IMG/VR virus record: IMGVR_UViG_3300030118_007016
Span: 1-60,809 of that record
Source of the DNA: a virus
Strand: one strand, 5' to 3'
Length of the DNA: 60,809 bases
Notes under the pieces: model-generated
Told to the model about the DNA's origin: nothing
The model's database searches: none
Seen by the model: only the letters and a program-made list of their open reading frames with translations
In this document: piece by piece, positions 34,922 through 55,681 of the stretch
Numbering within the stretch: position 1 is the first letter of the stretch
Layout of the letters: every line of letters starts with the position of its first letter
Position numbers and translations under genes: made by a program

Positions 34922-35531
34922 TAATAAATCTCCTTACATTTTCTATGTTTACTTCTGTTGCATTATTGACTTGCATAACTTTACATCCAGATGCTCTCGC
35001 TGCCTGAATACCTTTTGGCGAATCCTCTACTATCATCGCATCGTCTGGATTTATTCCTAGATCTTTCAAGATTTTCAAATATCCTTCAGGATCTGGCTTT
35101 GATTTAATAACATCTTGATTGCTAACAAACATATCTAAAGATGAAAAAACACCAGCTTTTTCAAGCATTAAACACGCTGTTTTTCTAATACTATTTGTAA
35201 AACATGCTACTTTTACATTATTTTCTTTCAGCCATTTAATAAGTTCTACCTTTGTTTCATCATATTGACACTTACTATGAATAATATCTAATGTTTTCTG
35301 CTGTTTTAGTTCTCCAATATCTTTATGGTATTCCTCCAGTAAAACACCCATGTCTGTTAGTTTTTTTAATTTTACTTTTGTTGGTAGACCATTAAATGTT
35401 GAATAATGTTCTTCCTCTGTAATAACATAATCTGTATATTGACCCAGAGCTTTGTTAAATGCCTCTTTGTGCCAGTCACATGCATCAATCAGTACCCCAT
35501 CCATGTCGAACATTACAAGTTTTAAACTCAT
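34893..35531 (-). CDS. HAD-superfamily phosphatase/phosphomutase
   Basis: Haloacid dehalogenase fold, subfamily I with a helical cap. Motif I is FDMDGVLIDA (nucleophile Asp9, acid/base Asp11), motif II ACFTNSIR, motif III Lys in SKPDPEGYLKIL, and motif IV VEDSPKGIQAARASG. Closest in pattern to beta-phosphoglucomutase and sugar phosphatase types. It would supply or dephosphorylate a sugar phosphate for the neighbouring nucleotidyltransferase. The ATG at 35531 overlaps the previous stop. Confidence 0.85.
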   Translation of the reverse strand: MSLKLVMFDMDGVLIDACDWHKEAFNKALGQYTDYVITEEEHYSTFNGLPTKVKLKKLTDMGVLLEEYHKDIGELKQQKTLDIIHSKCQYDETKVELIKWLKENNVKVACFTNSIRKTACLMLEKAGVFSSLDMFVSNQDVIKSKPDPEGYLKILKDLGINPDDAMIVEDSPKGIQAARASGCKVMQVNNATEVNIENVRRFINESFNTNGG

Positions 35532-36247
35532 GCTGTACCTCTTAAGTTGATGTCTATTCCATGCTCTTCAACTACATTTCTTAGAGAGTCTCCATAGTCA
35601 CTAGTGTACCATTTACCTTTAACTATTGCTGTTGCAAAATATGGGTATATACTACTGTCCCAATGAAACATTCCTCGTTTATTGTCGCATTCTTGCCAAG
35701 TCATGCCAGTTTTTATGCCTAAGTACTCACATATCATAGATGAGTTTGATTCGAACTCCCATATATTATTGCCATATGTTTTGCTATATATGCTCATTAG
35801 TTTTTCTTTATTGCAAACACTTGGCTGAATAGCGAATCTTAGATTTTGTGGATTCTCATACACATCTGGATGGTTTGTATTGTTAATTAAAGGATGATTT
35901 TCATCATAGCTAGCTCTAGCTAGTTTTACGATATCTATCTCTCCCTCTTTTACAAGATGAACTATTTGATTTATTTTTTCTTTATTTGGAGCGTCATATA
36001 AAAACATATCCTCGTGATGAAAAAGCACAATCTCTTCTTCAACTTGTGCTAAACAATGGAGCATTCTTTTTTGATATGACAAAGAATCATCGTATTTAAT
36101 AACAATCCAATCATTATCTAAGTCTTGAGTAGATTGATCTGTAAATAAATATTTTTTATAACCTTTCATATACTTGTCTGTCTGTGCAAAAAGAGGTGCC
36201 CACACATCAGAGTAATCAGAATGAGAATAAAATACTAAAGGAATCAT
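35528..36247 (-). CDS. Putative glycosyltransferase-like protein, 239 aa
   Basis: Start taken at the ATG at 36247, which overlaps the upstream stop as TAATG; a GTG three codons upstream is less likely. The sequence runs from MIPLVFYSHSDY through KYLFTDQSTQ to a VLFHHEDMFLYD motif reminiscent of the DxD-type metal site of GT-A glycosyltransferases. Later FESNSSMICEYLG and RGMFHWDSSIYPYF are likely acceptor-site elements. No firm family match is made. Soluble, no membrane span, coupled to glycan genes on both sides. Confidence 0.65.
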   Translation of the reverse strand: MIPLVFYSHSDYSDVWAPLFAQTDKYMKGYKKYLFTDQSTQDLDNDWIVIKYDDSLSYQKRMLHCLAQVEEEIVLFHHEDMFLYDAPNKEKINQIVHLVKEGEIDIVKLARASYDENHPLINNTNHPDVYENPQNLRFAIQPSVCNKEKLMSIYSKTYGNNIWEFESNSSMICEYLGIKTGMTWQECDNKRGMFHWDSSIYPYFATAIVKGKWYTSDYGDSLRNVVEEHGIDINLRGTA

Positions 36248-37080
36248 TACACCCACCTTGTCTTTTCATAAAGTCCTACTTTTTTGCAGAACCACTTGTG
36301 ATAAAGGTGACTATCAGTGACTCGCCACCTTGGATATTTCATTAAATTTTTGCTTCTTTCATTTTGAGGCTTTTCTAATTCGTTGGTAAACTGCTCTGGT
36401 GCATTAAAGTCCCACACATTATATCTAACACTATCAAACCATCCACTTGTTAAGCACTTTTCATACTCCGAGTTAGGCTTAAAATCCTGTAAAGCATTTT
36501 CATATATTGTAGAATATTTTTTCATAACTTCCCCAGAGCCATAAAACCACATGTCTCCGTATCCAGCATTCATTTGATCCCAATATGTAGTGTACAAATA
36601 ACTTGGATCCGATTTAGGATCAAATCTAAGCTGATTCACTTCAGAACCACCTCTCTGGCTTATGTCAAATCTAGTTGTTATTACCCAATCATATACAAAA
36701 TTATTATCATTTTCATACTTTTCTCTTAATTGTAAGGCTTTTTTTCTTGAGTAATAGAAGCTTAGTATTCTGGATGCGATTGCATTGTTATACATTGTTT
36801 GTTGTCTTGGGAACCCTTCATCAATGTACTGCTGACTTATTCCATTATCTGTACATATTTTATCAAAATCTACTTGTTGCTCAAATAGAGACATTTTTGG
36901 AGAATAGAAATCTTCAACTATACTTTCATACTCTGGTTGCCAGCAGTGCACAAATACATCTACACTATCAGACTTAGAATAAACTGTCTCTTTTAAGTGT
37001 TGTAATCCCCCAACAACGGTTGAATGATCTCCAGTGCTTACAGTTCCAAAATATCCGTGAAGACATAGAGCGATTCTCAT
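36247..37080 (-). CDS. Putative glycosyltransferase, 277 aa
   Basis: The start (MRIALCLHGYFGTVSTGD) is a Rossmann-like strand-loop. VDVFVHCWQPEY and VITTRFDIS (a R-x-D motif usual for the donor site in this loosely defined group of GT-A-like enzymes) follow, then YGDMWFYGSGEVMKKYS. Its C-terminal WRVTDSHLYHKWFC element recalls phage and bacterial proteins annotated as polysaccharide glycosyltransferases. Catalysis is unproven. ATG at 37080 follows the aminotransferase gene, overlapping by 4 nt. Confidence 0.65.
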   Translation of the reverse strand: MRIALCLHGYFGTVSTGDHSTVVGGLQHLKETVYSKSDSVDVFVHCWQPEYESIVEDFYSPKMSLFEQQVDFDKICTDNGISQQYIDEGFPRQQTMYNNAIASRILSFYYSRKKALQLREKYENDNNFVYDWVITTRFDISQRGGSEVNQLRFDPKSDPSYLYTTYWDQMNAGYGDMWFYGSGEVMKKYSTIYENALQDFKPNSEYEKCLTSGWFDSVRYNVWDFNAPEQFTNELEKPQNERSKNLMKYPRWRVTDSHLYHKWFCKKVGLYEKTRWV

Positions 37081-37697
37081 CTTACCTCCACATCTTTAAA
37101 CAGATTAAATTCAGTTAAGTCTCTGTAAGGGGGGTTTTCTGGTATGTCTGGTACATTCTCAGGGTAATTTTGCATCAACATAAGCCCCCGAACTGCTTGC
37201 TCTGGAGTCATATACATATTCCAACCCTCTTCATCAATCATATCCTCGTGATATAGCATACCATCAGTTCTTCCTTCATAGCGACGGGCTTTTAACCACT
37301 TCATAGCATCTAAGTTATCAAGCAGAATCATACCTCCCTTTCCAATCTTAAGGTGTTTTTTTATGTGAAATGAAAGGCACATCATTGTTCCGGGGATGTA
37401 CATATTGGAAGTTAATCTTTTTGCTGCATCGTATATTGGAAATGGTTTTAGTTGATAAATACCTTCCCATTGAATGTCTTCAAAAACTAACTTTCCACCT
37501 GCTTGCATGACAGATTGTGGTGGAGAAAGGTATGTTCTCTTTGGCAAAATTACTTCTTTGCCTTCTACTTTGTGCCACTTACAGGCGAGAAAAAGAGCAT
37601 TGGTGCAACTATTAACTGATACTGCATAAGGTGCGCCGGTGTAGTGTGCAATTTCTTCTTCAAACATTTTTACTACTTTGTATGGACTATGTAGCAT
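37077..37697 (-). CDS. Truncated DegT/DnrJ/EryC1-type sugar aminotransferase
   Basis: The ATG at 37697 (ATGA overlap with the upstream stop) is preferred to a GTG one codon earlier. HYTGAPYAVSVNSCTNALFL, then EVILPKRTYLSPPQSVMQAG and FEDIQWEG, fit the PLP-binding large domain of sugar aminotransferases. The likely Schiff-base Lys is in CLSFHIKKHLKIGKGGMI, matching the family S-F-x-x-x-K-x-x-x-x-G-x-G-G pattern. Members are usually 360-400 residues, so at 206 residues the C-terminal small domain is missing. No frameshift remnant follows, so this is a compact version, active or not. Confidence 0.75.
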   Translation of the reverse strand: MLHSPYKVVKMFEEEIAHYTGAPYAVSVNSCTNALFLACKWHKVEGKEVILPKRTYLSPPQSVMQAGGKLVFEDIQWEGIYQLKPFPIYDAAKRLTSNMYIPGTMMCLSFHIKKHLKIGKGGMILLDNLDAMKWLKARRYEGRTDGMLYHEDMIDEEGWNMYMTPEQAVRGLMLMQNYPENVPDIPENPPYRDLTEFNLFKDVEVR

Positions 37698-38887
37698 CAC
37701 TCTGTCTCCAAAATATAATATTTCTTTTTAAATCCACAAGCCTCAAATAACTTTATGCTAGCTTCATTTTCAAGCTTTACTTTTGCAAATGCTTTAGGCT
37801 CTTGTTTGATAATATTTTTTATCATATATTTGCCTAACCCCCTTCCTTGAAAGTCTGGGTGTGTTGCAACTCTAATGTCATTGTCAATCACTCCAGCGTA
37901 TCCAGCAAAAGCATTATCAACCAAAGCAACGTAAAAACAATCAGAATATTTTTTCATAAATTGGTTGTGTTCTTCCTCGGATATGTGCTCTTGATTAATA
38001 AAACCTGTTTTTACTTGTGGATGATTTCTTAAGTCTCTTATGTTGTCCCAGTATTTTTTTTGATTTTTTACAATATGAACATCATTAGACCACACACATT
38101 TTTTTCCTATATCTGCGGATTTGTAGTTAGACCAGAAGTGCCCCTTTAAATAATCCCTCTCATATCCCAAATCAAAATATGGATGTAACGTAGTGCCAAT
38201 ATCTAAGTACGTGTTTTGATCATATTCTTTAAAAAGCTCATGTATCAATATCTCACTCAAACTGCTCGCTGAAAAAAGAAAGACGTGATCTTTTATGTTA
38301 TTTTGTTTTATCCAATCTTTAATTTCATCTGCTAAATGATGATCATTTACGATGCAGTTTTCTCCAACCCTAAAGTCCTTTACAACATCAAAGCAAAGTT
38401 CTTTTTTTGCTTTTTCTAAGTCTGCATTTTTACTACATACCATTACAACTTTTCTTTCTGCTATAATGGGAACCAGTCTCGTAAGAAATGCTTCATAATT
38501 CCCATTAACAAATAAATTTGCCCATGTTAGATATTCATTTGTTCGCCCAACTTGTCTCTTCATCCAAGCATGTGCTTGATGACCTCCGATACAACAGGGG
38601 CAAGCTATACCAGTATAATAATTGTCTTTAGAAAACAAAAAGGATTTTATAAGCTTGTCTCTTACAAAAGCATGCTTTTCTGGATCGAAATGCTTATGGT
38701 CTTCTTTACTGTATCCAAAGTTATGTGTAAAGTCCCCCTCTATAACATAATCATCAGCTATAACTAATTTCATATTTTTTAGAATATCAGCCTCACCGTC
38801 AGAAAATCTTACAAATGCAAAGTTTTCTTTTGCAGCAAGCTTTTCAGCAAACATTTCTAAATCTTTAGTAAAGTCTTTACCTAACAT
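37697..38887 (-). CDS. GT-D-like glycosyltransferase fused to GNAT acetyltransferase
   Basis: Residues 1-260 resemble the DUF1792/GT-D glycosyltransferase fold: FAFVRFSDGEAD (R27-F-S-D-G-E32), an ACPCCIGG segment, KVVMVCSKNAD, and TYLDIGTTLHPYFD near residue 235. Residues about 290-396 are a GNAT acyltransferase: YVALVDNAFAGYAGVIDND, then the acetyl-CoA loop HPDFQGRGLGKYMIKNII, and ASIKLFEACGFKKK. The pairing suggests transfer of a sugar coupled to N-acetylation of the sugar or acceptor. It overlaps the MBL gene upstream by 11 nt and the aminotransferase by 1 nt. Confidence 0.75.
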   Translation of the reverse strand: MLGKDFTKDLEMFAEKLAAKENFAFVRFSDGEADILKNMKLVIADDYVIEGDFTHNFGYSKEDHKHFDPEKHAFVRDKLIKSFLFSKDNYYTGIACPCCIGGHQAHAWMKRQVGRTNEYLTWANLFVNGNYEAFLTRLVPIIAERKVVMVCSKNADLEKAKKELCFDVVKDFRVGENCIVNDHHLADEIKDWIKQNNIKDHVFLFSASSLSEILIHELFKEYDQNTYLDIGTTLHPYFDLGYERDYLKGHFWSNYKSADIGKKCVWSNDVHIVKNQKKYWDNIRDLRNHPQVKTGFINQEHISEEEHNQFMKKYSDCFYVALVDNAFAGYAGVIDNDIRVATHPDFQGRGLGKYMIKNIIKQEPKAFAKVKLENEASIKLFEACGFKKKYYILETE

Positions 38888-40106
38888 AACACGTATCTCT
38901 AAATGAAAGCATCTGTCTCCATTGTTTCATATTATGAACACTAAAACAAGATGTAATATTCATAGTATCAGCTCCCCAAGGATTTTTAAAAAACCCATTC
39001 AAATCGTAAGATGTTACAGAAGCTATAGGAACTTTGCTCAAGTCATCTGTATGTGTAAAACTTATTTTGCTATCTGCAAAACTAAACTCACAGTATTTAT
39101 CGATATCCTGAACACATAGGGTAAATTTGGTGTCTGGGACATTTAATCCAAAATAATTTTTTAACTTTGATATTTCCCTATACATTGAAGAGAAAGACTC
39201 TTCCAAGTCATCTTTAGTAAACATTGTAGTTTTCTTTGGATTTTTGTTCTTAGCTTCATTAAATATGTTTGACCACTTTTTGCAGTTAGATAATGACTTT
39301 TTACGATCCATTTCAAATGGAATATTTTCAAGATAAAATGGTGCAAACATATTTATATTTTTATTGTTCTCTATAACCTCTTGAATGTTTACAATATGAT
39401 CGTTTAAAAAATGATTTTCAGGTCTACAAAAAGTTATAAAACTAGCAAATGGAATCGTTATTTTTGGGTTTAGTATTCTATGCGTATCTAATAAGTCAGA
39501 AATATGAGATTCCATAGCCAAATTAAGAGACTTTTTATCATCCTTATTTCCATAAAATCCTGCTAATGAGAATTGGTTAAACAACAAATCAATATCTCTT
39601 CCCATCATGTTTTCAAAAATACCTGTCTTCATTCTATGAAGTTCCTCTGTATTAAATTCACAATCATTTTTATTGAGAATTAGTTTTCCGTCAATGTCAA
39701 ACAACATTGCAGAATCATGATTATTTTTGAAAAAAGAAAATGTGAAATGGTCTATATCGTTGGTATAAAACTGATATGGTTCGAATTGATAATATTTAAA
39801 CCCTAGATTACTCATATTTTCATGAATATTGTCATTATCTCTCTTTGGCATTAAGACTTCTATTCTTTGGTTACATTTTTCTCTTATTTGCTTTAGAGTA
39901 GACCAGCTCAAATGATCTGGGTGTTCATGAGAAATAAATATATACTTTAGGTTTGATAAATCCAAATCGTCTATATTGGTTTCGTTTAACAACTCCCAAG
40001 AATCATTAAAAACTTTTCCACTAAACCATGGATCAACTAGAATAGAATAATCTTTTTTTATGATTTGAAAACATGCGTGATTTATAAACTTAACTTCAAA
40101 ACTCAT
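38877..40106 (-). CDS. Metallo-beta-lactamase-fold hydrolase, 409 aa
   Basis: A beta-lactamase-fold metal hydrolase with the HxHxDH site in YIFISHEHPDHLS (His60, His62, Asp64, His65). Early FINHACFQIIKKDYSILVDP is typical of the UlaG/CMP-Neu5Ac-hydroxylase-like branch, which acts on sugar or nucleotide-sugar substrates. The second metal-binding half is less clear. The C-terminal 150 residues are not a usual MBL tail. It is embedded in the glycan run, downstream of the UDP-GlcNAc epimerase-like gene, so a sugar substrate is probable. Confidence 0.75.
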   Translation of the reverse strand: MSFEVKFINHACFQIIKKDYSILVDPWFSGKVFNDSWELLNETNIDDLDLSNLKYIFISHEHPDHLSWSTLKQIREKCNQRIEVLMPKRDNDNIHENMSNLGFKYYQFEPYQFYTNDIDHFTFSFFKNNHDSAMLFDIDGKLILNKNDCEFNTEELHRMKTGIFENMMGRDIDLLFNQFSLAGFYGNKDDKKSLNLAMESHISDLLDTHRILNPKITIPFASFITFCRPENHFLNDHIVNIQEVIENNKNINMFAPFYLENIPFEMDRKKSLSNCKKWSNIFNEAKNKNPKKTTMFTKDDLEESFSSMYREISKLKNYFGLNVPDTKFTLCVQDIDKYCEFSFADSKISFTHTDDLSKVPIASVTSYDLNGFFKNPWGADTMNITSCFSVHNMKQWRQMLSFRDTCYVR

Positions 40107-41091
40107 CCTTCAAGACCTCATACACTTTTTGGGCAGCATATCCGTCTCCATAGGGGCAGTCTCCGATAGGAATGTGATCCTCATTGACTTGATTGAAAAG
40201 ACCTTCCAAATCCTCTGGTTCAAGACACATAAAAGCAAAAGTGTTGACACCTTCAAGTCTTTCGGTTTTCTTTCGGCATACAATACATTTCTTTTTTAGA
40301 AAAGAAGTTTCTTCTTGTAATCCGCCAGAATCAGTGATAACCAGTCTTGTTTGAGCCAACAACTTTATAAACTTATTATACTCCATTGGCTCAATAATTT
40401 TAAGGTTTTTTAGCAAGTGTTTGTGCTTTTGGACATTAGGATTTGGGTGCAGGGGTATAATAAAATCTAAGTCTTTATTGCCTTCTGCAATCTTATCGAT
40501 GGTCTTGAACCATTGATCCATGTTGTGATGATTCTCTCTTCGATGCATTGTTACAATAACTTTGTTTGTGTATTCTGTCTCAATATCTCGTAGGTTATCC
40601 AGCACAGTATTGCCTACAACCTCTACTCTACCTTGAGTATTCTCATTAGATAAAAATACTTTGCTAAGATCTGTTGGACAAAGATGAACATCAGCAATTC
40701 TAGATATTGCCTGACGGTTGAACTCCTCTGGATATGGTTGATTTTTATCGTATGTCCTTAAACCTGCTTCCAAATGGATTACTTTGATCCTTCTGTGGAA
40801 AGCAGCAAGAGCAATAGAGAAAGCAGAAGTCGTGTCTCCCTGCACCAAAACAGACGTTACACCTTCAAAAATCTCTTCTAAGTTCATAACGGAACTCACG
40901 ATAGAGTCAAGTCGGTTTGGACCGTCTTTGATTTCTAACTTTACTAAATCTATGTCGTCCCCTACTTTTGAGAGTAGGTCTGTGTGCTGACCTGTGAAAA
41001 GCAAACGATAAGGAATATTGCCGTCCATTTGATCTAGCAATGGCTTAATTTTAATCCACTCTGGTCTAGTTCCAAAACTTAATAAAATCAT
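40096..41091 (-). CDS. UDP-N-acetylglucosamine 2-epimerase-like
   Basis: All hallmark motifs of the WecB/NeuC family are present: SFGTRPEWIKIKPLL, VLVQGDTTSAF, HLEAGLRTYDKNQPYPEEFN, RIADVHLCPTD, VGNTVLD, VTMHRRENH and TDSGGLQEE. The 331-residue length is a little below cellular enzymes (about 370). The reaction is the interconversion of UDP-GlcNAc and UDP-ManNAc, or a hydrolysing relative of it. That gives the pathway an N-acetyl-mannosamine-type precursor. Overlaps both neighbours by a few bases. Confidence 0.9.
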   Translation of the reverse strand: MILLSFGTRPEWIKIKPLLDQMDGNIPYRLLFTGQHTDLLSKVGDDIDLVKLEIKDGPNRLDSIVSSVMNLEEIFEGVTSVLVQGDTTSAFSIALAAFHRRIKVIHLEAGLRTYDKNQPYPEEFNRQAISRIADVHLCPTDLSKVFLSNENTQGRVEVVGNTVLDNLRDIETEYTNKVIVTMHRRENHHNMDQWFKTIDKIAEGNKDLDFIIPLHPNPNVQKHKHLLKNLKIIEPMEYNKFIKLLAQTRLVITDSGGLQEETSFLKKKCIVCRKKTERLEGVNTFAFMCLEPEDLEGLFNQVNEDHIPIGDCPYGDGYAAQKVYEVLKDEF

Positions 41092-42695
41092 ACTTTTATG
41101 CCTCGCACAGTTTCCCAGCCGCCTTTGATCGCTGTTTGAACGCAGACATCCCTTTCACTAAAAAACTGCTGATGTGATACAGCACTGTTAGTTGATGTTG
41201 CTTTTGTATCAATGCCCAATTCATTGCCCAAGATAGATCCGTGAAGACTTGTATCCTCTGGTGGGTGTGGGGGACAGTAGGTTTGTATATTGCCGTATTT
41301 CTGTGCAAGGTAAGAAAACTGGATGTCTTCTCCATTGTCCCAAGTAGTTGGCTTTTCTCTCCACAAGTGTGATAACCACTCTCGCTTAAAGAACCAAGCG
41401 TGTCCTACTAGATCTACCCTTGTTGTTTCACTATTTTGTGTGGGCCACCCGCATCGGTCGTGTTGAACATAGAACTTGTCGTTCAATGTGACACCAGCAG
41501 ATCCAAGAATGCCTTCGCTAGTTTTCATTGTTTCCAAACAGTTCTCAAACCAACGATCTCCCGGTATAGTGTCATCGTCAAAGATGGCTACATATTCAGT
41601 GTCAGCCAGCAAAGCAGCGGCAAACCTTCCATAAAACTTCCAGTTGTGATCATTGTGAAATACTCTATCAAGGTCCAGTTCTTTAAAGTTAAATCCAATG
41701 TTATCCTCGTGTTCATTTACCCACAGCCAAACCTGCGCTGGTCTGGTTGTTTGTTTTCTAATCGCATCAATCTGCATTCTAAGATTGTATGGACGACGGT
41801 ATGCATTTAAAATAACTGTAATAGGGGCAGTTGTAAACTCTTTTCTTTTCTCGCTTTCTAATACCTCGACAACTTTGTCAATAACCTCAGTTTTTTGGGA
41901 CCTTACAAAGTCAAGAAGCTCTTGTCCTTTATACTTTGGGAACCAATCCTCGCTTGCACATCCAAGGTTGTTATTAGTTTTAAGTTTACAGTTTACAATA
42001 CGGGCTTCAACAGCTAAACGACAAAAGGTTTCGAGGACTTGGGAAAAGAAGACCAGCCCGTCGTGTTGAGAAAGTTGGTTAATGAAGTTATCATAGTCTA
42101 AAGAAACAATAAGATTGTAATCAATATTGTGTTTTTCGCAGAAACTTTTCGCTTGATAGGTCCCTTTTATTTCATTGGAGCTGCTTAAAACAGCCATCTT
42201 GCCATTTTTCTTTGTATCTACATATTTTTGCAAAACATGTAGTTCTTCATCAGACCAAAGAGAACAACCAAGATTAATTACATTTGCTTCTCTAATGTTT
42301 TTGCTGATTACTTCTGCGTGTAGTTTAGATTGAGCAAAGACTGCCTTGGCATTTCTGTAGAACTCCAAGTTGGTCAAGTTAGTTGCTGGAACCCTATAGT
42401 CTTTGTAAGGTGAAGGATCTCGACCAACAATGTATTTGTGATCATGTTCATAGATTACATAATCACAAGTTTGTAGCAGACGCAAGCATGCAGGACTGAG
42501 CATAACAAAGTTGGATACAATAAAGGTTTTTTCTGCATTGTCTTTGATTAGCTTTTCTGTTACTTGCTTAGATTTTATGCGAGTTACTTTGTATCCTCGT
42601 TCAACAAGGGAGTTGACAACAACCTGATCTACAAGTTCACCGCCACCCTTTATCTCATCAGCATAAAAATCTGCTATGTGGATTATTCTTTTCAT
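41088..42695 (-). CDS. Two-domain glycosyltransferase (GT-B-like N-half, GT-A C-half)
   Basis: Residues 1-285 look like a GT4-type GT-B fold lacking some helices: IADFYADEIKGGGELVDQV, YVIYEHDHKY, KMAVLSSSNEIKGT and FFSQVLETFCRLAVEARI. Residues about 290-535 are a GT2-like GT-A domain: APITVILNAYRRPYNLRMQI, EYVAIFDDDTIPGDRWFENC with a DDD metal motif, and WDNGEDIQFSYLAQKYG carrying the acidic ED acceptor-site pair. A bifunctional enzyme adding two sugars is likely. The second half is the better-supported catalytic unit. Confidence 0.82.
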   Translation of the reverse strand: MKRIIHIADFYADEIKGGGELVDQVVVNSLVERGYKVTRIKSKQVTEKLIKDNAEKTFIVSNFVMLSPACLRLLQTCDYVIYEHDHKYIVGRDPSPYKDYRVPATNLTNLEFYRNAKAVFAQSKLHAEVISKNIREANVINLGCSLWSDEELHVLQKYVDTKKNGKMAVLSSSNEIKGTYQAKSFCEKHNIDYNLIVSLDYDNFINQLSQHDGLVFFSQVLETFCRLAVEARIVNCKLKTNNNLGCASEDWFPKYKGQELLDFVRSQKTEVIDKVVEVLESEKRKEFTTAPITVILNAYRRPYNLRMQIDAIRKQTTRPAQVWLWVNEHEDNIGFNFKELDLDRVFHNDHNWKFYGRFAAALLADTEYVAIFDDDTIPGDRWFENCLETMKTSEGILGSAGVTLNDKFYVQHDRCGWPTQNSETTRVDLVGHAWFFKREWLSHLWREKPTTWDNGEDIQFSYLAQKYGNIQTYCPPHPPEDTSLHGSILGNELGIDTKATSTNSAVSHQQFFSERDVCVQTAIKGGWETVRGIKV

Positions 42696-43969
42696 TATTC
42701 AAAACTTATAACAGGCTCTTCTTCTTTTTGAGTTTCTACAGGAATGACAGCGTTTGCAAAAGCTTCATATTGTTTGTCTTCATCAAATTCTTTTTTAATC
42801 CAAGTTTTAAGTTTTTTAGCCATTTCTTCATATTTGCTATAGTCTTCATAAACGTTACTAACAACTTTTTTGAAACTACTTTCATCAGCATAGCACCACA
42901 TTGAGTCTGCCTGTAGCACCCCATCCCACACAGCCTCTTGTTGAATAGGACCAAGTGTATACTCCACCTCTGCAAACATCGGCTTTAAAACTGTTTGTGT
43001 TTTCTTTTTCGATCCTTTTTTTCTTTGCTTTTGGGGCATATTTAAAAAATCACATTGTCCACTCCAGTTAGTAGTAATAACTGGAAGTCCACAATAAGCC
43101 GATTCGAAAAGAGGAAGACCGTAGCCCTCACCGTGGCTCAAAGAAATAAAAGCTTTGATTTTTGGATGCGAATACAATCCAATCATCTCAGGGTCAGACA
43201 TATCCCCATGCAAAACGTATAACTTACATTGAACACCATCAGCAGCGAACTGAGAGACAAGGTTCTCAAACTGCATCTTGTCCATCGTTGAATTGTTTCT
43301 AAAAAAACCTTTTATTACAAGACCAACATTTGGGTTATCTTTGAAGTTTTCTACAAACCACTTAATTGTATTGCTAGCATTTTTTCTTGGACCCCATTGT
43401 GATACCATCAAAAAATTAAAATCTGTTTCCAAATCCAGCTTCAAAGACTTTTTCTTTGTTTTTTTTGCAGGATAATTTACAACAGTAATAGGAATATTTG
43501 ATTTCCTAACACTAGCTTCTCCAACCTTTTCATTATTAGCACGGTTATACACTGGATAGCTAGTATTTTCTAGTGTATTCTTTGAGTGCGAAGAGGTCAC
43601 GACAATCCTATCCATGGCGATACTTTTCTCAACCCATTGGGGAGATACTTTTGTTGTCTCAATTCCAGCGGTGTATCCAACATTTACAGGAGCTATTTTT
43701 TCCCACTCATTAGGTATAGTAACTTGTAAAGAAACATCAAACTTACCATCGCCCTGCATATGATGGAATGTTTTGCCTATTAAATAATCGACATAGTTTT
43801 TTTCTTCATCATATTGAGAAACCCATCCAGTTTGTCCCCAGTTGGTATTAATCAAATATAGATCGATCTTATCTTCTTGTCTTCTTAAAGAACGCAGTGC
43901 AAATCTTGCCTGTTCTCCATAACCAGATCTGCTCAACACTGGTCCTCTAATAACAACCTTTTTTTTCAT
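42695..43969 (-). CDS. Glycosyltransferase family 4-like, 424 aa
   Basis: A GT-B retaining-type glycosyltransferase. The N-terminus GPVLSRSGYGEQARFALRSL is the donor/acceptor glycine loop. The C-terminal donor domain has FNFLMVSQWGPRKNASNTIK, then KAFISLSHGEGYGLPLFESAYCG with the conserved E-x(7)-E motif, and PVITTNWSGQCDFL. No signal or membrane span. It follows the next GT gene by 14 nt, with GAGGAAA before the ATG at 43969. Substrate unknown. Confidence 0.88.
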   Translation of the reverse strand: MKKKVVIRGPVLSRSGYGEQARFALRSLRRQEDKIDLYLINTNWGQTGWVSQYDEEKNYVDYLIGKTFHHMQGDGKFDVSLQVTIPNEWEKIAPVNVGYTAGIETTKVSPQWVEKSIAMDRIVVTSSHSKNTLENTSYPVYNRANNEKVGEASVRKSNIPITVVNYPAKKTKKKSLKLDLETDFNFLMVSQWGPRKNASNTIKWFVENFKDNPNVGLVIKGFFRNNSTMDKMQFENLVSQFAADGVQCKLYVLHGDMSDPEMIGLYSHPKIKAFISLSHGEGYGLPLFESAYCGLPVITTNWSGQCDFLNMPQKQRKKGSKKKTQTVLKPMFAEVEYTLGPIQQEAVWDGVLQADSMWCYADESSFKKVVSNVYEDYSKYEEMAKKLKTWIKKEFDEDKQYEAFANAVIPVETQKEEEPVISFE

Positions 43970-43983
43970 TACGTTTCCTCTTT

Positions 43984-45240
43984 TTAATTAATCTTTTTGA
44001 ACGTCCATGGACTATACTGCTTTCTGGTTTCCCAAGAACCTCGCTCCTCATGTACTCTATCCAGCAAATCTACCCATTTTTGTTGATATTTTTCGTAAGA
44101 ATAGTTTGTGAGAACATGCTCTCTACCAGCTTTGCCAAGCGCTTCTCTTTCTTCTTTACTCATATTATACATTTCTCTCATGGCACTCATAAAATCTTCT
44201 TTACTAACCCTGTCCTCATAGATGTATGGCACCTGTTGGGATCCGATTATTGCTTTTGAGCAGGGCTGGATGCCAATACCAAACCAATTTTCTCCATCTG
44301 TGACTTGTTCTTGTAGTCCTCCGGTCATATTGACTACGATAGGAGTTCCACAAGACAGAGATTCTAGAGTAGCCAAGCCGAAGCCCTCTGCATCGGATAT
44401 ATTGATCGTGCAATCTGCAAGATTATACATCATCCCTAGTTGCTCAGGAGAAACTTTATTTGTTGATAGTCTAATTTGTCCATCCACGGCACCAAAATGT
44501 TGCATCAAGTGTTCTAGTGGCTGACCATATGGATCATTTGGATCAGTATGCATTAGCAAAACTACCTTATCTTTACCGACTTCATTAGCAAAATCATTAA
44601 ACCACTTTAATAAACTGCCACTTAGCTTTCTTCTTGCATTCCTATTATTCCAAAAGAATACAAATTTACCATCTAAATTTTGTTTTGTTTTTATTTCATC
44701 AATAGTATCTTGGTCGACCGGCTTAAAAAACTGTGGATCTACTGCATGGGGTAAATAAATATTTTCAACCTTGTCTGTAACTTCTGAAACTACCTCATGT
44801 GTAACTTTAGATATGGAAGCTATAACGTCAGTCGACTCATACCACCCTTTATTAAAAACAGGCGCTGGATGATTATCCCATACATGATAATACACCATTG
44901 GAACTTTGTCTCTAATCTCATTGTCCATTAACCAAAGCCATTCATAAAATCTAGGGTCCGTCATAAACCACAAGATATCGGGCTTTTGAGTGGACAATAT
45001 GGACCTGATTTGTTCTTGGGTGCCGTATCCATCGACTGGAAATATTGTCCAATCTCCATTTGATCCCTCAACTGTGATAGGATCATAAGTTGGATGCTTA
45101 ACTGCTCCTCCTAGAGATATAACCTGATATCTGCCTGTTTTTAGCAATGCATCAATCATGTTTTTTGTTTGATTTGCTACTCCGGATGGAGACAACGGGT
45201 GGTCGCTAAGTGTCAAAACTTTAATTTTTTTATCTGTCAT
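43984..45240 (-). CDS. Glycosyltransferase family 4-like, 418 aa
   Basis: ATG at 45240 makes an ATGA overlap with the nuclease gene; a TTG two codons earlier is not needed. The N-terminal Rossmann half has VLTLSDHPLSPSGVANQTKN and DILWFMTDPRFYEWL. The C-terminal half has FVFFWNNRNARRKLSGSLLK, then CTINISDAEGFGLATLESLS with the E-x(7)-E motif, CGTPIVVNMTGGLQEQV and a C-terminal helix. A retaining GT4 enzyme using an NDP-sugar, related in plan to the neighbouring GT gene but not a recent duplicate. Confidence 0.88.
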   Translation of the reverse strand: MTDKKIKVLTLSDHPLSPSGVANQTKNMIDALLKTGRYQVISLGGAVKHPTYDPITVEGSNGDWTIFPVDGYGTQEQIRSILSTQKPDILWFMTDPRFYEWLWLMDNEIRDKVPMVYYHVWDNHPAPVFNKGWYESTDVIASISKVTHEVVSEVTDKVENIYLPHAVDPQFFKPVDQDTIDEIKTKQNLDGKFVFFWNNRNARRKLSGSLLKWFNDFANEVGKDKVVLLMHTDPNDPYGQPLEHLMQHFGAVDGQIRLSTNKVSPEQLGMMYNLADCTINISDAEGFGLATLESLSCGTPIVVNMTGGLQEQVTDGENWFGIGIQPCSKAIIGSQQVPYIYEDRVSKEDFMSAMREMYNMSKEEREALGKAGREHVLTNYSYEKYQQKWVDLLDRVHEERGSWETRKQYSPWTFKKIN

Positions 45241-46010
45241 TTGCAATGTTCCGTTTTATGAAATTCACACTTGCGGCATGCAAGCCTGTTTTTTATGAAG
45301 TTTTTCTTCTCAATATTGTAAATCGCTTTTTCAAGAAATTTAAGTGCATTTTCAGTTTTTCTTGGACCACTTGTGACTCGAAATATTTCAACTCTTTCTT
45401 TTTTAGCTGTTCTTTTAAGCAGTGCGAAGTGAGTTTCTATCATCTTAGGGTCTACATTGTGCTTTTTAGCCCAATAATGCTTGTAAAAAGTCAACTGGTA
45501 GGTCATCATTGGGTCAGATTTCTTGCGAGCATCCCATCCCCAAGAGCATGTTTTCCAATCGATGATATGTGTCTTGCCATCAGAGGTCTCGATAACCAAA
45601 TCAATGAAGCCTTTGAACTTATTTTTCTCTTCACAAGGGAAATCTTCGATGATTTCCATCAAATCCTCTTCAGCAGCGAGGACTTTATACTCTCCAAAGT
45701 GCTCTTTCATGGCAGGAAGCACTTCTTCGAGGATCAATGGACCTTGATTTTCCATGGAAGTAACCAATTTTTCGTCTTTTTTAACATTTTTGGGCAAATT
45801 TTCAAGACTTTCTTTGAATTTTAGGTCAAAAAACGATTTTTTATCGTCCAAACCCTCAGTCATCATCTTTTCGCAGGTATCGTGGATAGCATTACCAAAA
45901 GCAGTGAAAGCATTGCCTTCAAAGCCTTTTACCTTGTCTATGTTCATTAATTTGTGATAAAAAGGACAAAAATCCCAGTTTTTTGCCTCAGAAAAGCTAA
46001 TATGACCCAT
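45237..46010 (-). CDS. PD-(D/E)XK nuclease, RecB/Cas4-like
   Basis: ISFSEAKNWDFCPFYHKLMNI and AFTAFGNAIHDTCEKMM start the fold; the catalytic residues are Asp137 in KGFIDLVIET and D151-x-K153 in HIIDWKTCSW. Three C-terminal cysteines (ACRKCEFHKTEHCK) with Cys15 near the N-terminus resemble the four-Cys iron-sulfur site of Cas4 and AddB nucleases. At 257 residues it is a stand-alone exonuclease-like protein. It is the first gene upstream of the GT run, though a DNA-end-processing role is unrelated to glycans. Confidence 0.85.
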   Translation of the reverse strand: MGHISFSEAKNWDFCPFYHKLMNIDKVKGFEGNAFTAFGNAIHDTCEKMMTEGLDDKKSFFDLKFKESLENLPKNVKKDEKLVTSMENQGPLILEEVLPAMKEHFGEYKVLAAEEDLMEIIEDFPCEEKNKFKGFIDLVIETSDGKTHIIDWKTCSWGWDARKKSDPMMTYQLTFYKHYWAKKHNVDPKMIETHFALLKRTAKKERVEIFRVTSGPRKTENALKFLEKAIYNIEKKNFIKNRLACRKCEFHKTEHCK

Positions 46011-47008: not shown

Positions 47009-47084
47009 TGGTGGACCCACTCGGACTCGAACCGAGAACCTGCCGGTTATGAGCCGGATGCTCTAACCATTGAGCTATAGGTCC
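47009..47084 (-). tRNA. tRNA-Ile2 (CAU anticodon; possibly Met)
   Basis: A 76-nt cloverleaf with a 7-bp acceptor (GGACCTA/TGGGTCC), D arm GCTC/GAGC, anticodon loop CTCATAA, T arm CTCGG/CCGAG with TTCGAGT, discriminator A and encoded CCA. The CAU anticodon may be Met or the lysidine-modified Ile reading AUA. The D-arm sequence AGCTCAATGGTTAGAGCA is closer to bacterial tRNA-Ile2 than to elongator Met, and the other phage tRNAs also read AT-rich codons. A 27-43 mismatch in the anticodon stem is noted. Confidence 0.85.
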
Positions 47085-48509: not shown

Positions 48510-49337
48510 ATGCGACAAAGACTCAAAATCATATTAACATTACTTCTACTTAGTCTTTCAGTACTTTCTTGTGCCACTTCTAATCTTGACTTTCAAAGAG
48601 GTGCGAGAGATACATTTGTTAAAATAAAACAAAACGTAGCAATTACTGTTTGTAACCCAGAGGATCCTAAAGAATGCCTAACAAAAACAAGTAGATCAAC
48701 TGGATCTGGCGCTGTTGTTATGAGAACTGATGAAGGATCTTATGTTTTAACTGCTGGTCATGTTTGTTCTTTTGAAAAAGAAATGCAGTTAGCATCAGAA
48801 TTTGCTGGTTCAAAAGTATTAGTGCAAATGAGATCAGTTAATCTTAATCTTGGGGAATATGTATCTGATATTATTAGCATGGATAATACTATAGACACTT
48901 GCTTACTGTTTGCTCGCAACCTTTATACAACCAAAGTAGCAAAAATAGCACCATACTCTAGATCTCTAGAAGAAGGTGAGAGGGTTTACAATGTAGCTGC
49001 CCCTGTTGGCATTTTCTATAAAGATGTGGTTCCTCTCTTGGAGGGATTCTTTATGGGCAATAGAGACACTAGAGCATATTATTCTGTGCCTGCAATGGGC
49101 GGTAGTTCTGGTTCTCCTATATTTAATAAACACAATGAAATCGTTGGTATGATTCACTCGGTCAATGTATATTTCCCAGTTGTGTCAGTTTCTCCACCAC
49201 TTAAAGAGCTTAGAGCTTTTATCGTCAATGGTATAAGGAAGAATGAGAGATTGAGACTTGGAGAGAAAAAAGACAGAGTTATTGAGCCCTTTTGGAAAGG
49301 CTTGGGTCTATCTGATATGAGTGATAATAGTCTTTAG
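48510..49337 (+). CDS. Trypsin-like serine protease, predicted lipoprotein
   Basis: The N-terminus is a lipoprotein signal: basic MRQRLK, hydrophobic ILTLLLLSLS, and lipobox VLSC with lipidated Cys21. The mature part is a chymotrypsin/HtrA-like protease with His84 in YVLTAGHVC, Asp129 in NTIDTCLLF, and Ser200 in AMGGSSGSPIFNKH. There is no PDZ domain after it. It would be anchored in the outer or inner membrane of the infected cell, facing the periplasm. It is the only plus-strand gene in this stretch and ends flush with the tRNA-Leu gene. Function could be host-surface remodelling or blocking of superinfection. Confidence 0.82.
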   Translation: MRQRLKIILTLLLLSLSVLSCATSNLDFQRGARDTFVKIKQNVAITVCNPEDPKECLTKTSRSTGSGAVVMRTDEGSYVLTAGHVCSFEKEMQLASEFAGSKVLVQMRSVNLNLGEYVSDIISMDNTIDTCLLFARNLYTTKVAKIAPYSRSLEEGERVYNVAAPVGIFYKDVVPLLEGFFMGNRDTRAYYSVPAMGGSSGSPIFNKHNEIVGMIHSVNVYFPVVSVSPPLKELRAFIVNGIRKNERLRLGEKKDRVIEPFWKGLGLSDMSDNSL

Positions 49338-49420
49338 TATCGGGAGGGGGACTTGAACCCCCACGCTCAAAGAGCAACAGATTTTAAGTCTGTCGTGTCT
49401 ACCTATTCCACCACCCCGAC
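49338..49420 (-). tRNA. tRNA-Leu (UAA)
   Basis: An 83-nt type II tRNA: acceptor GTCGGGG/TCCCGAT, long variable arm TTGCTCTTTGAGCGT, anticodon loop CTTAAAA, and T arm GGGGG/CCCCC with TTCAAGT. Discriminator is A and CCA is not encoded. The anticodon reads UUA, a common Leu codon in this AT-rich genome. It begins next to the TAG of the protease gene with no spacing. Confidence 0.95.
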
Positions 49421-49423
49421 ATA

Positions 49424-49882
49424 TTATATAAGCTTATCTATTTCTTTGTTTGCATGATTAATTATAGATTTTTGAGCAGCCACTAACATATCACTATCTA
49501 TATCTTTTGCAGTGTCTCCCAAATCAAAAATAGGCTTTATACCAAGATAGCCACACACCTGTAGCTCTTCCTTGGGAAGAGATAGGCTAGTTGCAGATCC
49601 GCCGTTACCAAAATATGTCGGTCTTACTTCAAACAAGGCGAAAACCGCATCTCCCTCAGAGTCATCAAAAGAAATCACTTCAGATACATGCTCACATGCT
49701 TCTAACAAATCTTTTCTAGTTTCAAAATCAAACAAAAGATGACCCTTGTTTTTCACAACCCATTCATCACTATTTAAAGCTACAATTACTTTGCCGTATT
49801 TACTGGCAGCTTTGAAAAGTAATAAATGACCAACATGGAGGGGGTTAAACGCTCCGCTTACTAGGATTGTTTTTTCGCTCAT
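49424..49882 (-). CDS. HxGH-type cytidylyl/adenylyl-transferase-like, 152 aa
   Basis: The 152-residue protein begins ILVSGAFNPLHVGHLLLFKA with the HxGH nucleotide-binding motif, followed by VIVALNSDEWVVKNKG. The late ISSTxxR-like region is not obvious. This size and motif suit a RfaE/TagD- or NMNAT-like small nucleotidyltransferase transferring CMP or AMP to a phospho-acceptor. It overlaps the ClpP-like gene by 4 nt, and the stop is 3 nt from the tRNA-Leu gene. Substrate uncertain. Confidence 0.78.
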   Translation of the reverse strand: MSEKTILVSGAFNPLHVGHLLLFKAASKYGKVIVALNSDEWVVKNKGHLLFDFETRKDLLEACEHVSEVISFDDSEGDAVFALFEVRPTYFGNGGSATSLSLPKEELQVCGYLGIKPIFDLGDTAKDIDSDMLVAAQKSIINHANKEIDKLI

Positions 49883-50505
49883 GGGATAATAATATCATCA
49901 ACAAGACCATATTTTAAGCATGTCTTGGCATCCCACCATAAATCTCTTTTAAGAATATCTTTGATTTTTGATTTAGGTATTTTAGTGTGCTCTTCGTAGA
50001 TTCCGATGATCTTTTTCATCAACAACTCATTGTTTTTCATATCATCTTTCATCTCTTCAAACTTTCCCCACATGCCTGATGAAAGCTGGTGGATTAACAT
50101 AAAAGCGTGTTCGTGCATCAATCTCTCTTCAGCTACGACACTCATAATCGTAGCAGCAGATGCGGCGCAACCATCAATAATAGATACAACAGGGACTGGG
50201 CAGTTTTTAATATAATCTACTGATCCGAAACCCGAAAAAACAGAGCCTCCATAAGAATTAATATGTATATTCAATTTTGGAGGACACTCAAGCTTGTAAA
50301 GTTGCTGTATGTTGTAGAGTTTTTGTCCTGTTGAATAAATAAGCTTATTTAAAGTGAGATTGTCCTGCCTAGTTACACCAGAATAAAAATAAATTTTATT
50401 GTACTCTACAGAGACTCTGCTATCATCTGATGATCCAGCCATCATTGTTGGTCCCTCATTTTCTTCGCTTTCATCTTCTGCTTCTAAATGCCAGTATTTT
50501 CTCAT
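49879..50505 (-). CDS. ClpP-like serine protease
   Basis: Crotonase-fold ClpP protease with HINSYGGSVFSGFGSVDYI (oxyanion-strand region), nucleophile Ser116 in DGCAASAATIM, His139 in AFMLIHQLSS, and a possible Asp192 in DLWWDAKTCLK. The 208-residue length equals cellular ClpP. In phages, related proteins can be prohead proteases, but no portal or capsid gene is nearby. It may instead cooperate with host Clp ATPases. Start ATG at 50505 with AGAGG upstream, just after tRNA-Arg. Confidence 0.88.
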   Translation of the reverse strand: MRKYWHLEAEDESEENEGPTMMAGSSDDSRVSVEYNKIYFYSGVTRQDNLTLNKLIYSTGQKLYNIQQLYKLECPPKLNIHINSYGGSVFSGFGSVDYIKNCPVPVVSIIDGCAASAATIMSVVAEERLMHEHAFMLIHQLSSGMWGKFEEMKDDMKNNELLMKKIIGIYEEHTKIPKSKIKDILKRDLWWDAKTCLKYGLVDDIIIP

Positions 50506-50536
50506 TAAAACCTCTGTAGTTATAAAAAATATTTAG

Positions 50537-50610
<74 letters not shown>

Positions 50611-50958
50611 TCATAATTCTTTTATCAAATGATCCCCAGCCGCTCTCATATCAGTTTCCAACTTGTGTAGATAGGCAGCGACTAGTATGAATCTAGACAC
50701 AAAACTTATTTCTTTTTTTGACAAAATAGTGCTAAACTCTTTACCATCTTTGTTTTTATGCAAAAAAACATAGTTAAAAACATATTGCTCTGTTTGAATA
50801 CCAACTTTTTTGGCTAGGTCTTCATAGGATGGATGACACGACTTACACTCTTTGACCCATACATTTGAATTTTTTCTAGTTTGTGAATAGTCTTGTGCTT
50901 GAACAGCAAAAGGAGTGAATACAAAAAGAATACAAATATATTTTAAAATGTTTTTCAT
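50611..50958 (-). CDS. Secreted CxxCH protein, cytochrome c-like, 115 aa
   Basis: The first 21 residues ([20 protein letters not shown], then A) are a clear Sec signal with cleavage predicted at VQA/Q. The mature protein has [17 protein letters not shown], a CxxCH haem-attachment motif (Cys38, Cys41, His42). It is followed by a helical region typical of small c-type cytochromes, with no clear axial Met. This would be exported and haem-loaded in the periplasm. A non-haem use of the motif cannot be excluded. The upstream promoter has its predicted start at the ATG itself. Confidence 0.65.
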
Positions 50959-50964
50959 GGAAAC

Positions 50965-50993
50965 ATTATAGCTTATATTTATTTAAGTTTCAA
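50965..50993 (-). promoter_or_regulatory. Sigma70-type promoter before CxxCH gene
   Basis: TTGAAA at 50988-50993, 17-bp spacer, TATAAT at 50965-50970 on the minus strand. The expected transcription start falls at or next to the ATG (50958), implying a leaderless or near-leaderless mRNA. Confidence 0.65.
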
Positions 50994-52130
50994 GAACTTT
51001 TTTAATTCTTCGATTCTTTTCTTTGGAGATTTTAGCCCACCAACGATTGTGTAGGCGACGAGTTTCTCTCTTTCTGGATCTTCGTAAATACCCCTGTGAA
51101 TGATTGCGCCCCCAGTTAATGTCGCTAATGTGTCAAATCCATATTCAATATTGTCCATTAGACCGGGGACGGTCTCATAAAGTACAGAACCTCCAACGAT
51201 AATTGAGGCGGCTCCTTTTGCAGAAGTTAAATCAAACCCGCTGGCAAGTAATGTTTTTTCAAGATTATTTCTAAGCCCCTGTGACACTGAAGTTGGACTT
51301 TCGGGGTCTTTGATTGTAGTGGCTCCGAAAATCATGCAACCTGCTGTTTTCATAATACTGTCATAATCTGCTGGATCAAACACAGTATAGTCAGAGTTTT
51401 TAGTGCACAAAAGATTAAAGATGTGAAATAGTCCGGCGACTGTATTGTTTAATGTTGGCCAAAACTGCTTTACAGTTAGTCGTGGATAAAGCTTTTTGAT
51501 TTTATCATTATCAATAATGACTAAAGGTGCAAAGTTTCCATTTTCAGCTTCTGCACAAAGCTCTGTCATTCTATTGTATGAATTTTCTGCCACTATTGGG
51601 GACGCACACTCTCCGCTAGTAGGTAATGATGCAATAACTCCTACTCTTTCACTAGGATTTTCTACTCCAATATAAGTAAAATATCTTTTTGCAGTGTCCA
51701 AAAGAGACATAACACTACCTCCTCCGGTTCCGCCCCCAACACCAACACAAATCAAGATACGGTCGATTTTGTCACCGAAAATCTCTTTGTATTTATTGAA
51801 AACTTCTTGACTTTTATCATCAAATGCTTGCTTTGAAACTGCATGATTTTTTCCAGCGCCGGATGCCCCATCATACACTAGATGATGTTTGTGGTTTTCT
51901 GGGAGACCTAAGTGATTTAAGTCCGATTTTGCTAGATTAAAAGCGATTGTCTTTCTGTATCCCAAATCAAAGAATGCTTTAGCCATGCGACCTCCGCCTT
52001 GACCAGATCCAACAATACCATATCGCAATGCTCCGCCGCTCTCATCTTCAACAAAATCTACTTTTGACTGTTCAATTTCTTCAATATCAATATCTTCAAT
52101 GTCTAAAGTAGGTAAGTTTAAATCATTCAT
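50979..52130 (-). CDS. Tubulin/FtsZ-like GTPase
   Basis: The 383-residue protein has RYGIVGSGQGGGRMAKAFFD (nucleotide-loop glycine motif), FNLAKSDLNHL, and VYDGASGAGKNH. The tubulin/FtsZ signature is GVGGGTGGGSVMSLLD (residues 130-145, compare GGGTGTG), with a T7-like DPADYDSIMK. The N-terminal 35 residues are acidic; the C-terminus ends in a basic tail (KSPKKRIEELKKFLKLK). A GTP-dependent filament-forming protein is inferred; phage tubulins such as PhuZ and TubZ position replicating DNA or partition plasmids. Sequence similarity to either group cannot be judged here. The ATG at 52130 has AGGAGATTGATAAA and an ACTATTTA element upstream. Confidence 0.82.
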   Translation of the reverse strand: MNDLNLPTLDIEDIDIEEIEQSKVDFVEDESGGALRYGIVGSGQGGGRMAKAFFDLGYRKTIAFNLAKSDLNHLGLPENHKHHLVYDGASGAGKNHAVSKQAFDDKSQEVFNKYKEIFGDKIDRILICVGVGGGTGGGSVMSLLDTAKRYFTYIGVENPSERVGVIASLPTSGECASPIVAENSYNRMTELCAEAENGNFAPLVIIDNDKIKKLYPRLTVKQFWPTLNNTVAGLFHIFNLLCTKNSDYTVFDPADYDSIMKTAGCMIFGATTIKDPESPTSVSQGLRNNLEKTLLASGFDLTSAKGAASIIVGGSVLYETVPGLMDNIEYGFDTLATLTGGAIIHRGIYEDPEREKLVAYTIVGGLKSPKKRIEELKKFLKLK

Positions 52131-52164: not shown

Positions 52165-52172
52165 TAAATAGT
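52165..52172 (-). promoter_or_regulatory. ACTATTTA promoter-like motif before tubulin-like gene
   Basis: Minus-strand ACTATTTA (followed by TT) ends 34 nt before the ATG at 52130 and points to it. It is part of the repeated motif set. It sits 1-8 nt before the stop of the transglycosylase gene, so it lies in a short intergenic gap. Confidence 0.45.
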
Positions 52173-52693
52173 TAGTGGTTAGCAAACATTTCATTTTTGT
52201 ACTTTCGCTTCTGGATTCTCATTTTTCTTTTAAAATATTTTCTATATTTTAACACAGCTTTTGCATACTTTAAGCCTTGCTTGTTTCTATTTTCGCCCTT
52301 GCATCTGAAACCAGCGTTGTATCCGCACAGTGCTGTCGTTTCGTTTCCTTTTGCATATTTTTTTAGCCAATAGTTAAGTATTTTAGACCCAACACGAATA
52401 CCGGTTTCTGGATCTTTAAGTTCGTCGCAGGTTAAGTTTCTCCCTTTGTCACCATATTTTTTTGAATATTTTGGAAGTACTTGCATAACGCCACAAGCAT
52501 TCGCATGACTTTTAGCTGTTGGAGTCCATGCGCTTTCAATTCTACCAACTGCTACAATAAGTGATGGGTCTAAGTCATATTTTTCTGAAACTTCTTGGAT
52601 AATATGTGCATTTTCACATATAACATCTGCGTTTCTCATATTAATGGAAGCCGCAGTCATGCATACTAAAAATGATATATTCCAAGTTACCAC
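52172..52693 (-). CDS. Lytic transglycosylase (SLT family), secreted
   Basis: The start is a GTG (52693) with AGGA 8 nt upstream. The N-terminus is a possible signal peptide (VTWNISFLVCMTAASIN). The enzyme part has the SLT motif DPSLIVAVGRIESAWTPTA with catalytic Glu53, then CGVMQVLPKYSKKYG and TALCGYNAGFRC. Lytic transglycosylases cleave the peptidoglycan glycan strand forming anhydro-muramic acid, used for lysis or injection. It ends a few bases before the tubulin-like promoter motif. The C-terminal tail is very basic. Confidence 0.87.
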   Translation of the reverse strand: MVTWNISFLVCMTAASINMRNADVICENAHIIQEVSEKYDLDPSLIVAVGRIESAWTPTAKSHANACGVMQVLPKYSKKYGDKGRNLTCDELKDPETGIRVGSKILNYWLKKYAKGNETTALCGYNAGFRCKGENRNKQGLKYAKAVLKYRKYFKRKMRIQKRKYKNEMFANH

Positions 52694-53832: not shown

Positions 53833-54155
53833 GGGGGTGTACAGGTTTCGACTGGGTAATGAAACTAATGTGTGCAAGGCAGAGGGCAGCGACGGTCTCT
53901 GTAAAAACGCTGAAACTAATAAGTGCTAATACTGACACTTACTCTGAATACGCACTAGCTGCGTAATCGGGGGTAGCCATACCTTCTAAACCAAAATGGC
54001 GTATGGTTTCTCATTTCCTAAAAATGAGTGGTGCGAAAGAAGGCTAAGCGGAAAATAAATTGTCTGTGTTATTTTCCAGTATTCTACAGACTAACCTTGT
54101 GAACGACTCATTGGCAGAGTTATTTAGGACGGGGGTTCGATTCCCCCCACCTCCA
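53833..54155 (+). ncRNA. ssrA: Transfer-messenger RNA (tmRNA, ssrA), tag ANTDTYSEYALAA
   Basis: The 5' end GGGGGTGTACAGGTTTCGACTG and the 3' end CACCTCCA form the tRNA-like acceptor; the T arm is GGGGG-TTCGATT-CCCCC. The resume codon is GCT at 53925 and the tag frame reads ANTDTYSEYALAA with TAA at 53964-53966, ending in the usual ALAA degron. Discriminator A is at 54155; CCA is not encoded (CTA follows). The length of 323 nt is typical of a one-piece bacterial tmRNA. It rescues stalled ribosomes by tagging incomplete proteins for ClpXP/ClpAP. Confidence 0.97.
53925..53966 (+). other. tmRNA tag-peptide reading frame
   Basis: Fourteen codons including stop encode ANTDTYSEYALAA. The ALAA end is the proteolysis signal recognised by ClpX/ClpA; internal Glu and Tyr resemble many proteobacterial tags (compare ANDENYALAA). 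Confidence 0.95.
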
Positions 54156-54176
54156 CTAACTTTTAAATTAATGTGA

Positions 54177-55606: not shown

Positions 55607-55681
55607 TGCGGAGTAGCACAATGGTAGTGCAATCGGCTGTTAACCGATAGGTTGTAGGTTCGAGTCCTACCTCCGCAGCCA
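55607..55681 (+). tRNA. tRNA-Asn (GUU)
   Basis: A 75-nt cloverleaf: acceptor TGCGGAG/CTCCGCA, D arm GCAC/GTGC, anticodon loop CTGTTAA, T arm GTAGG/CCTAC with TTCGAGT, discriminator G, encoded CCA. GUU reads AAC and AAU. The 5' end is U rather than G, unusual but a good pair with A72. Confidence 0.95.

Follow-up and report, generated by a model that had tools for sequence, protein, structure and literature searches.

The window, which is the whole 60,809-nucleotide stretch of viral DNA analysed here, carries on its minus strand at 50979-52130 an ORF of 383 amino acids that encodes a TubZ-like phage tubulin, as assigned from the ORF and from Pfam, profile and predicted-fold matches, the plus strand across the same interval being interrupted by stop codons throughout. 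The upstream neighbour, at 52172-52693 on the minus strand, encodes an SLT lytic transglycosylase (PF01464, 2e-23), which is found in this place in only some members of the window's own clade, while the downstream neighbour (50611-50958, minus strand) encodes a small protein that appears to carry a signal sequence. The latter contains one CKSCH (haem-c-type) motif, is conserved in the window's clade, and matched no family above the cut-off. Next comes the gene for a ClpP-like/head-maturation-type protease (49879-50505, minus strand), syntenic in the same clade, and the order of the region reads RNase H-like protein, SLT transglycosylase, tubulin, CKSCH protein, ClpP-like protease, nucleotidyltransferase-like protein and PhoH. 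The main lineage of related phages has a different order, with a small holin-like protein, a protein with an N-terminal TM segment, the tubulin, a protein with an apparent signal sequence and a C-terminal TM segment, two small proteins, terminase and portal, which places the tubulin a few genes upstream of terminase, and the tubulin neighbours of the L013, L014, L060, L220 and L241 lineages are unrelated. A fixed operon partner was rejected on account of these differences between lineages, and the variable neighbours indicate no partner or cargo.

The 383-amino-acid protein matches the Pfam Tubulin GTPase domain (E 1.8e-7, 32.1 bits, or 33.8 bits with frame neighbours against a cut-off of 33) and TubZ-like_C (E 6.9e-5), both scores lying near the curated cut-offs, with Tubulin passing when the frame neighbours are included. 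Its top relatives of solved structure are TubZ of Bacillus cereus (4e-14) and of B. thuringiensis (5e-11), and a PDB search with a profile built on 15 relatives ranked TubZ (E 3e-21) ahead of CetZ (3e-15) and FtsZ (1e-11). With a profile of 56 relatives, hhalign gave E 1.3e-15 against a Paenibacillus plasmid TubZ and 4.3e-9 against E. coli FtsZ, and nothing significant against phiKZ PhuZ (probability 0.6%). Judged by its sequence, the ORF is a complete GTPase of the tubulin/FtsZ superfamily with intact nucleotide-binding and catalytic loops, and plasmid TubZ is its nearest match in the profile and predicted-fold comparisons, with FtsZ more distant. The gene is under strong purifying selection, with dN/dS of 0.016-0.08 against close relatives and dS near saturation, and such ratios argue that the ORF did not arise by chance. 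The call of a tubulin/FtsZ-like GTPase made in the first-pass annotation was thus borne out by the Pfam matches, the invariant loops and the dN/dS values.

Distribution of the family and type of phage

Profile scans of viral contigs revealed about 130 contigs that encode relatives with 50-97% identity, the carriers being uncultured T4-related viruses of bacteria, apparently mostly marine. A tblastn search with two family members against 50,697 deposited phage records returned no match, and the same kind of search with P0001 recovered plasmid TubZ at 22-28% identity. Scanning GTDB genomes for cellular relatives gave a single hit, an ordinary archaeal FtsZ, the scan being motif-based and liable to miss distant relatives. 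An unrooted tree, in which PhuZ and CetZ were too long-branched to be placed, resolves three groups, one of phage proteins, one of plasmid TubZ and one of FtsZ, with support of 70-86 bootstrap and 91 SH-aLRT for the first and 96-100 for the other two. In this tree the phage proteins fall outside both known groups, as plasmid TubZ forms a group of its own (99-100 bootstrap) and cellular FtsZ another (99-100 bootstrap), neither of which includes them.

The tubulin is a constant component of the phages that carry it, with exactly one match in each of 22 tubulin-bearing records. Loci of one lineage were also fetched, with its terminase and not the tubulin as query; all 41 of them that extend 2.6 kb or more upstream contain the tubulin in that stretch, and 14 shorter ones contain it whole or in part, the 80 best terminase matches being close relatives only. 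On the other hand, 27 phage records that share only the ClpP-like protease (42-65% identity) have no clear tubulin by profile, nor any over the Pfam cut-off in the 13 of them so searched, which marks the tubulin as a trait of particular lineages.

By gene content, these phages belong to a distant T4-like lineage. The T4 Gp23 capsid family was found in 10 of the 22 tubulin-bearing records, including that of L010, which is syntenic with the window, although the window itself, a 61 kb fragment, is without Gp23. T4-type portal (gp20) and terminase (gp17) are present in L031, and the nearest portal relatives are those of Microcystis phage Mel-JY01, Flavobacterium immuto phages and Rhodothermus RM378. 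The first-pass annotation had described a T4-type baseplate and gp55, of which the baseplate stands, as the window contains gp6 and gp25, but the gp55-like match is weak at about 20.6 bits. Its view of a T4-related rather than phiKZ-like phage agrees with the Gp23-type capsid of the relatives and with a BLAST search for chimallin, which gave no match in nine phage records with phiKZ as a positive control, such a search being able to find near relatives only and the records possibly being incomplete. No family-B DNA polymerase (gp43; DNA_pol_B) was found in nine records, and DNA_pol_A was found in five of these nine. The records of L031, L045, L070 and L036 (G041-G043 and G045) have a family-A DNA polymerase of about 410 amino acids, and these phages have T4-type capsid genes. 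The T4 late promoter TATAAATA was not enriched, with seen and expected counts of 7 and 6.3, respectively.

Predicted fold, catalytic loops and tails

AlphaFold2, supplied with 56 sequences, predicts a folded core from about residue 32 to the end of the protein (pLDDT 88, pTM 0.88), consisting of the two tubulin domains joined by H7. VIA-align scores of this model against TubZ, CetZ and FtsZ fall within Z 29-38, with the best values for TubZ (Z 38.3 over 335 residues at 2.3 A), followed by CetZ2 (36.3), c-st TubZ (32.6) and FtsZ (31.6), to which the sequence identity is about 20%. PhuZ was not among the PDB structural matches listed, which says nothing either way. Structure prediction and hhalign, comparisons of the kind proposed in the first-pass annotation, both place TubZ ahead of FtsZ, PhuZ is not recognisable by sequence, and the better fit to a non-polymerising GTPase that it had considered was not seen, the listed structural matches of the model being TubZ, CetZ and FtsZ.

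The active site in this superfamily is built from two successive subunits, the first binding GTP with its T1-T6 loops and the second completing the site with its T7 aspartates. These residues are present in the phage protein, which has GSGQGGGR as its T1 nucleotide loop (residues 41-48, 51987-52010, minus strand), invariant or nearly so in relatives, GVGGGTGGGS as its T4 tubulin signature (residues 130-139, 51714-51743, minus strand), located from the loop alignment of relatives, and FDPADY as its catalytic T7 loop (residues 251-256, 51363-51380, minus strand), whose D252 and D255 line up with the T7 aspartates of FtsZ and TubZ. The GGGTGGGS signature and T7-like loop read from the raw sequence are thus both present. 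Key residues of T1 (GxGQxGxR), T4 (GGxGGG) and T7 (FDxxD), together with N228 in the long central helix, are invariant across 56 sequences, and F251, D252, D255 and Y256 are all invariant in a set of 68, so that the T4-loop glycines and D252/D255 hold across 56-68 aligned relatives. Nothing in these predicted loops suggests a dead or non-polymerising GTPase, and on the evidence of sequence and predicted fold the phage tubulin would be a GTP-driven, filament-forming protein of the TubZ type.

One of the structural features that sets this family apart is the conserved acidic N-terminus (net -11), as had been noted earlier. Residues 1-31 are predicted to be a disordered tail, with pLDDT below 50 for residues 1-26, which AlphaFold2 leaves unplaced in the monomer model. 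Within this tail lies the motif LPTLDIE (residues 6-12, 52095-52115, minus strand), which in the form [IL]Px[LI]x[ILV]E is present in the N-tail of 77 of 77 proteins, 23-28 residues ahead of the T1 loop, and this spacing holds even with up to about 50 extra residues before the motif. A fuller version of the motif was found only in tubulins among about 1.9 million translated residues searched (four hits counted as 'other' are tubulins judged by their flanking sequence), and none was found in non-tubulin proteins of the fetched loci. The near-fixed distance to T1 suggests docking at a set place on the filament. At the other end, the C-terminus is basic (+5), as the first-pass annotation had claimed, but it is not an extension, since residues 370-379 form the folded helix H11 (50994-51023, minus strand) in the AlphaFold2 model. 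Most family members stop at H11, and a few have C-terminal tails of about 10-20 amino acids.

Comparison with known tubulins further delimits the family. Plasmid TubZ from Bacillus-type plasmids (TubZRC, or type III partition) is the best profile and structural match and shares its fold and loops with the phage tubulin, the C-terminal domain (Pfam TubZ-like_C) included, yet identity is about 21-28% and the tree branches are separate. Unlike plasmid TubZ, the phage tubulin has an additional acidic N-terminal tail and a phage structural context, and lacks an adjacent tubR-like gene, iterons and a long C-terminal tail. With PhuZ of the nucleus-forming jumbo phages phiKZ and 201phi2-1, it shares the phage origin, the catalytic T7 aspartate and an acidic tail outside the fold; however, the tail of phiKZ PhuZ is C-terminal, with no significant N-terminal extension (PMC3678025), and the present phages have T4-type capsids and no chimallin detected by BLAST in nine records. 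Clostridium phage c-st also encodes a TubZ (structural Z about 32), but this belongs to a plasmid-like partition system and is 16-18% identical. The closest predicted viral structure is A0A6J5RW92, an 'FtsZ Cell division GTPase' of an uncultured Caudovirales phage (TM 0.84), with 25% identity.

Proposed role and competing explanations

On balance, we favour, somewhat beyond even chances, a filament-forming tubulin of the TubZ type that during lytic infection positions phage DNA or the sites of replication and packaging, or carries capsids. During infection by such a distant T4-like phage, the tubulin would assemble into polar, dynamic filaments, in which the T7 aspartates of each subunit complete the active site around the GTP held by loops T1-T6 of the subunit before it, the required residues being present. 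By analogy, these filaments would serve as those of PhuZ do in nucleus-forming phages, for which there is a precedent of capsid trafficking (PMC10299810). The acidic N-tail would probably bind to the adjoining subunit, possibly close to the basic helix H11, in the manner of the acidic C-terminal knuckle of PhuZ, which docks on the adjacent subunit (PMC3678025), or alternatively it might recruit cargo. Any cargo adaptor would not be encoded at a fixed position beside the tubulin. Since the main-lineage gene lies beside terminase and portal, its late expression is possible, and if so, capsid movement would be a better fit than an early centring of the genome.

The tubulin superfamily and phage tubulins as such are already known, and what is new is a conserved TubZ-like tubulin outside the known phage settings. 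In the literature searched, the characterised phage tubulins belong either to jumbo phages that form a nucleus or to a single plasmid-like phage, and no report of tubulins in T4-like phages was found there. The present family suggests that a cytoskeleton may be assembled in infected cells by other phages too, and not solely by the giants that form a nucleus. If a widespread lineage of T4-like phages has a conserved tubulin, active transport inside the cell would not depend on a phage nucleus, and the role of a cytoskeleton in a phage whose capsid is conventional would become open to experiment, the invariant N-tail motif offering a direct way to look for partners and to design mutants. Rather more tentatively, the family might stand beside PhuZ and TubZRC as a third kind of phage cytoskeleton. 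Its tubulin would then be a core protein of distant T4-like phages that are lytic and about 170-190 kb in size, would work with neither nucleus nor centromere, would couple subunits by the acidic N-tail where PhuZ uses its C-terminal knuckle, and would move DNA or capsids.

The C-terminal peptide of FtsZ is DIPxFL, and the conserved IPxL tail motif, DIPTL-like in form, recalls it. Together with the FtsZ-superfamily fold, this resemblance would fit an effector of host division that co-polymerises with host FtsZ or titrates its partners, thereby blocking or redirecting division. We regard this as unlikely, as the tail lies at the N-terminus and its remainder is acidic, comparably short motifs are frequent in proteins generally, identity to FtsZ is low, and a dedicated inhibitor would have no need of an intact catalytic T7 loop.

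Partition of the TubZRC type, in which the phage is kept as a plasmid or pseudolysogen and TubR bound to iterons couples DNA to TubZ filaments, has in its favour that plasmid TubZ proteins are the nearest relatives and that TubZ of phage c-st is a precedent for a phage-encoded member (PMC7824862). However, the three plasmid tubZ loci used as controls carry a tubR-like ORF of 104-116 amino acids directly upstream, whereas the flanks of the phage gene are SLT, membrane or structural genes that gave no TubR hit, and no iteron array was found within about 2 kb. The defining context of TubZRC is hence lacking, though the protein is TubZ-like. The long flexible C-terminal tail by which c-st TubZ binds TubR (PMC5322520) is missing as well. 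Because neither an adjacent TubR-like gene nor iterons were found, and no integrase was found in the records, which may be incomplete, this mode of partition is disfavoured and appears quite improbable. A filament at the level of lysis or the envelope that organises membrane-bound phage proteins is likewise quite improbable, since the apparent envelope genes around the tubulin in two lineages (the holin-like and TM-containing proteins in a row in the main lineage and the SLT neighbour in the window's clade) give way to unrelated neighbours in the five other lineages named above, and the small neighbour proteins are without family assignment.

Other genes of the window

Near the tubulin lies a complete tmRNA gene at 53833-54158 on the plus strand (Rfam 137 bits, tag ANTDTYSEYALAA), to which nothing similar was found at the blastn level in 50,697 phage records; a tmRNA near the tubulin occurs also in L004, L005, L006, L007 and L017. 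Four tRNA genes, for Met (47009-47084), Leu (49337-49420), Arg (50536-50610) and Asn (55607-55681), are scattered between protein genes without forming a single cluster, with much the same set in relatives. Two very long ORFs near the baseplate genes, at 4820-15364 and 19554-27845 on the minus strand (3514 and 2763 amino acids), probably encode tail or fibre proteins, and a long run of genes at 32127-45246, also on the minus strand, includes those for a nucleotide-sugar epimerase, an aminotransferase-like protein and two glycosyltransferases.
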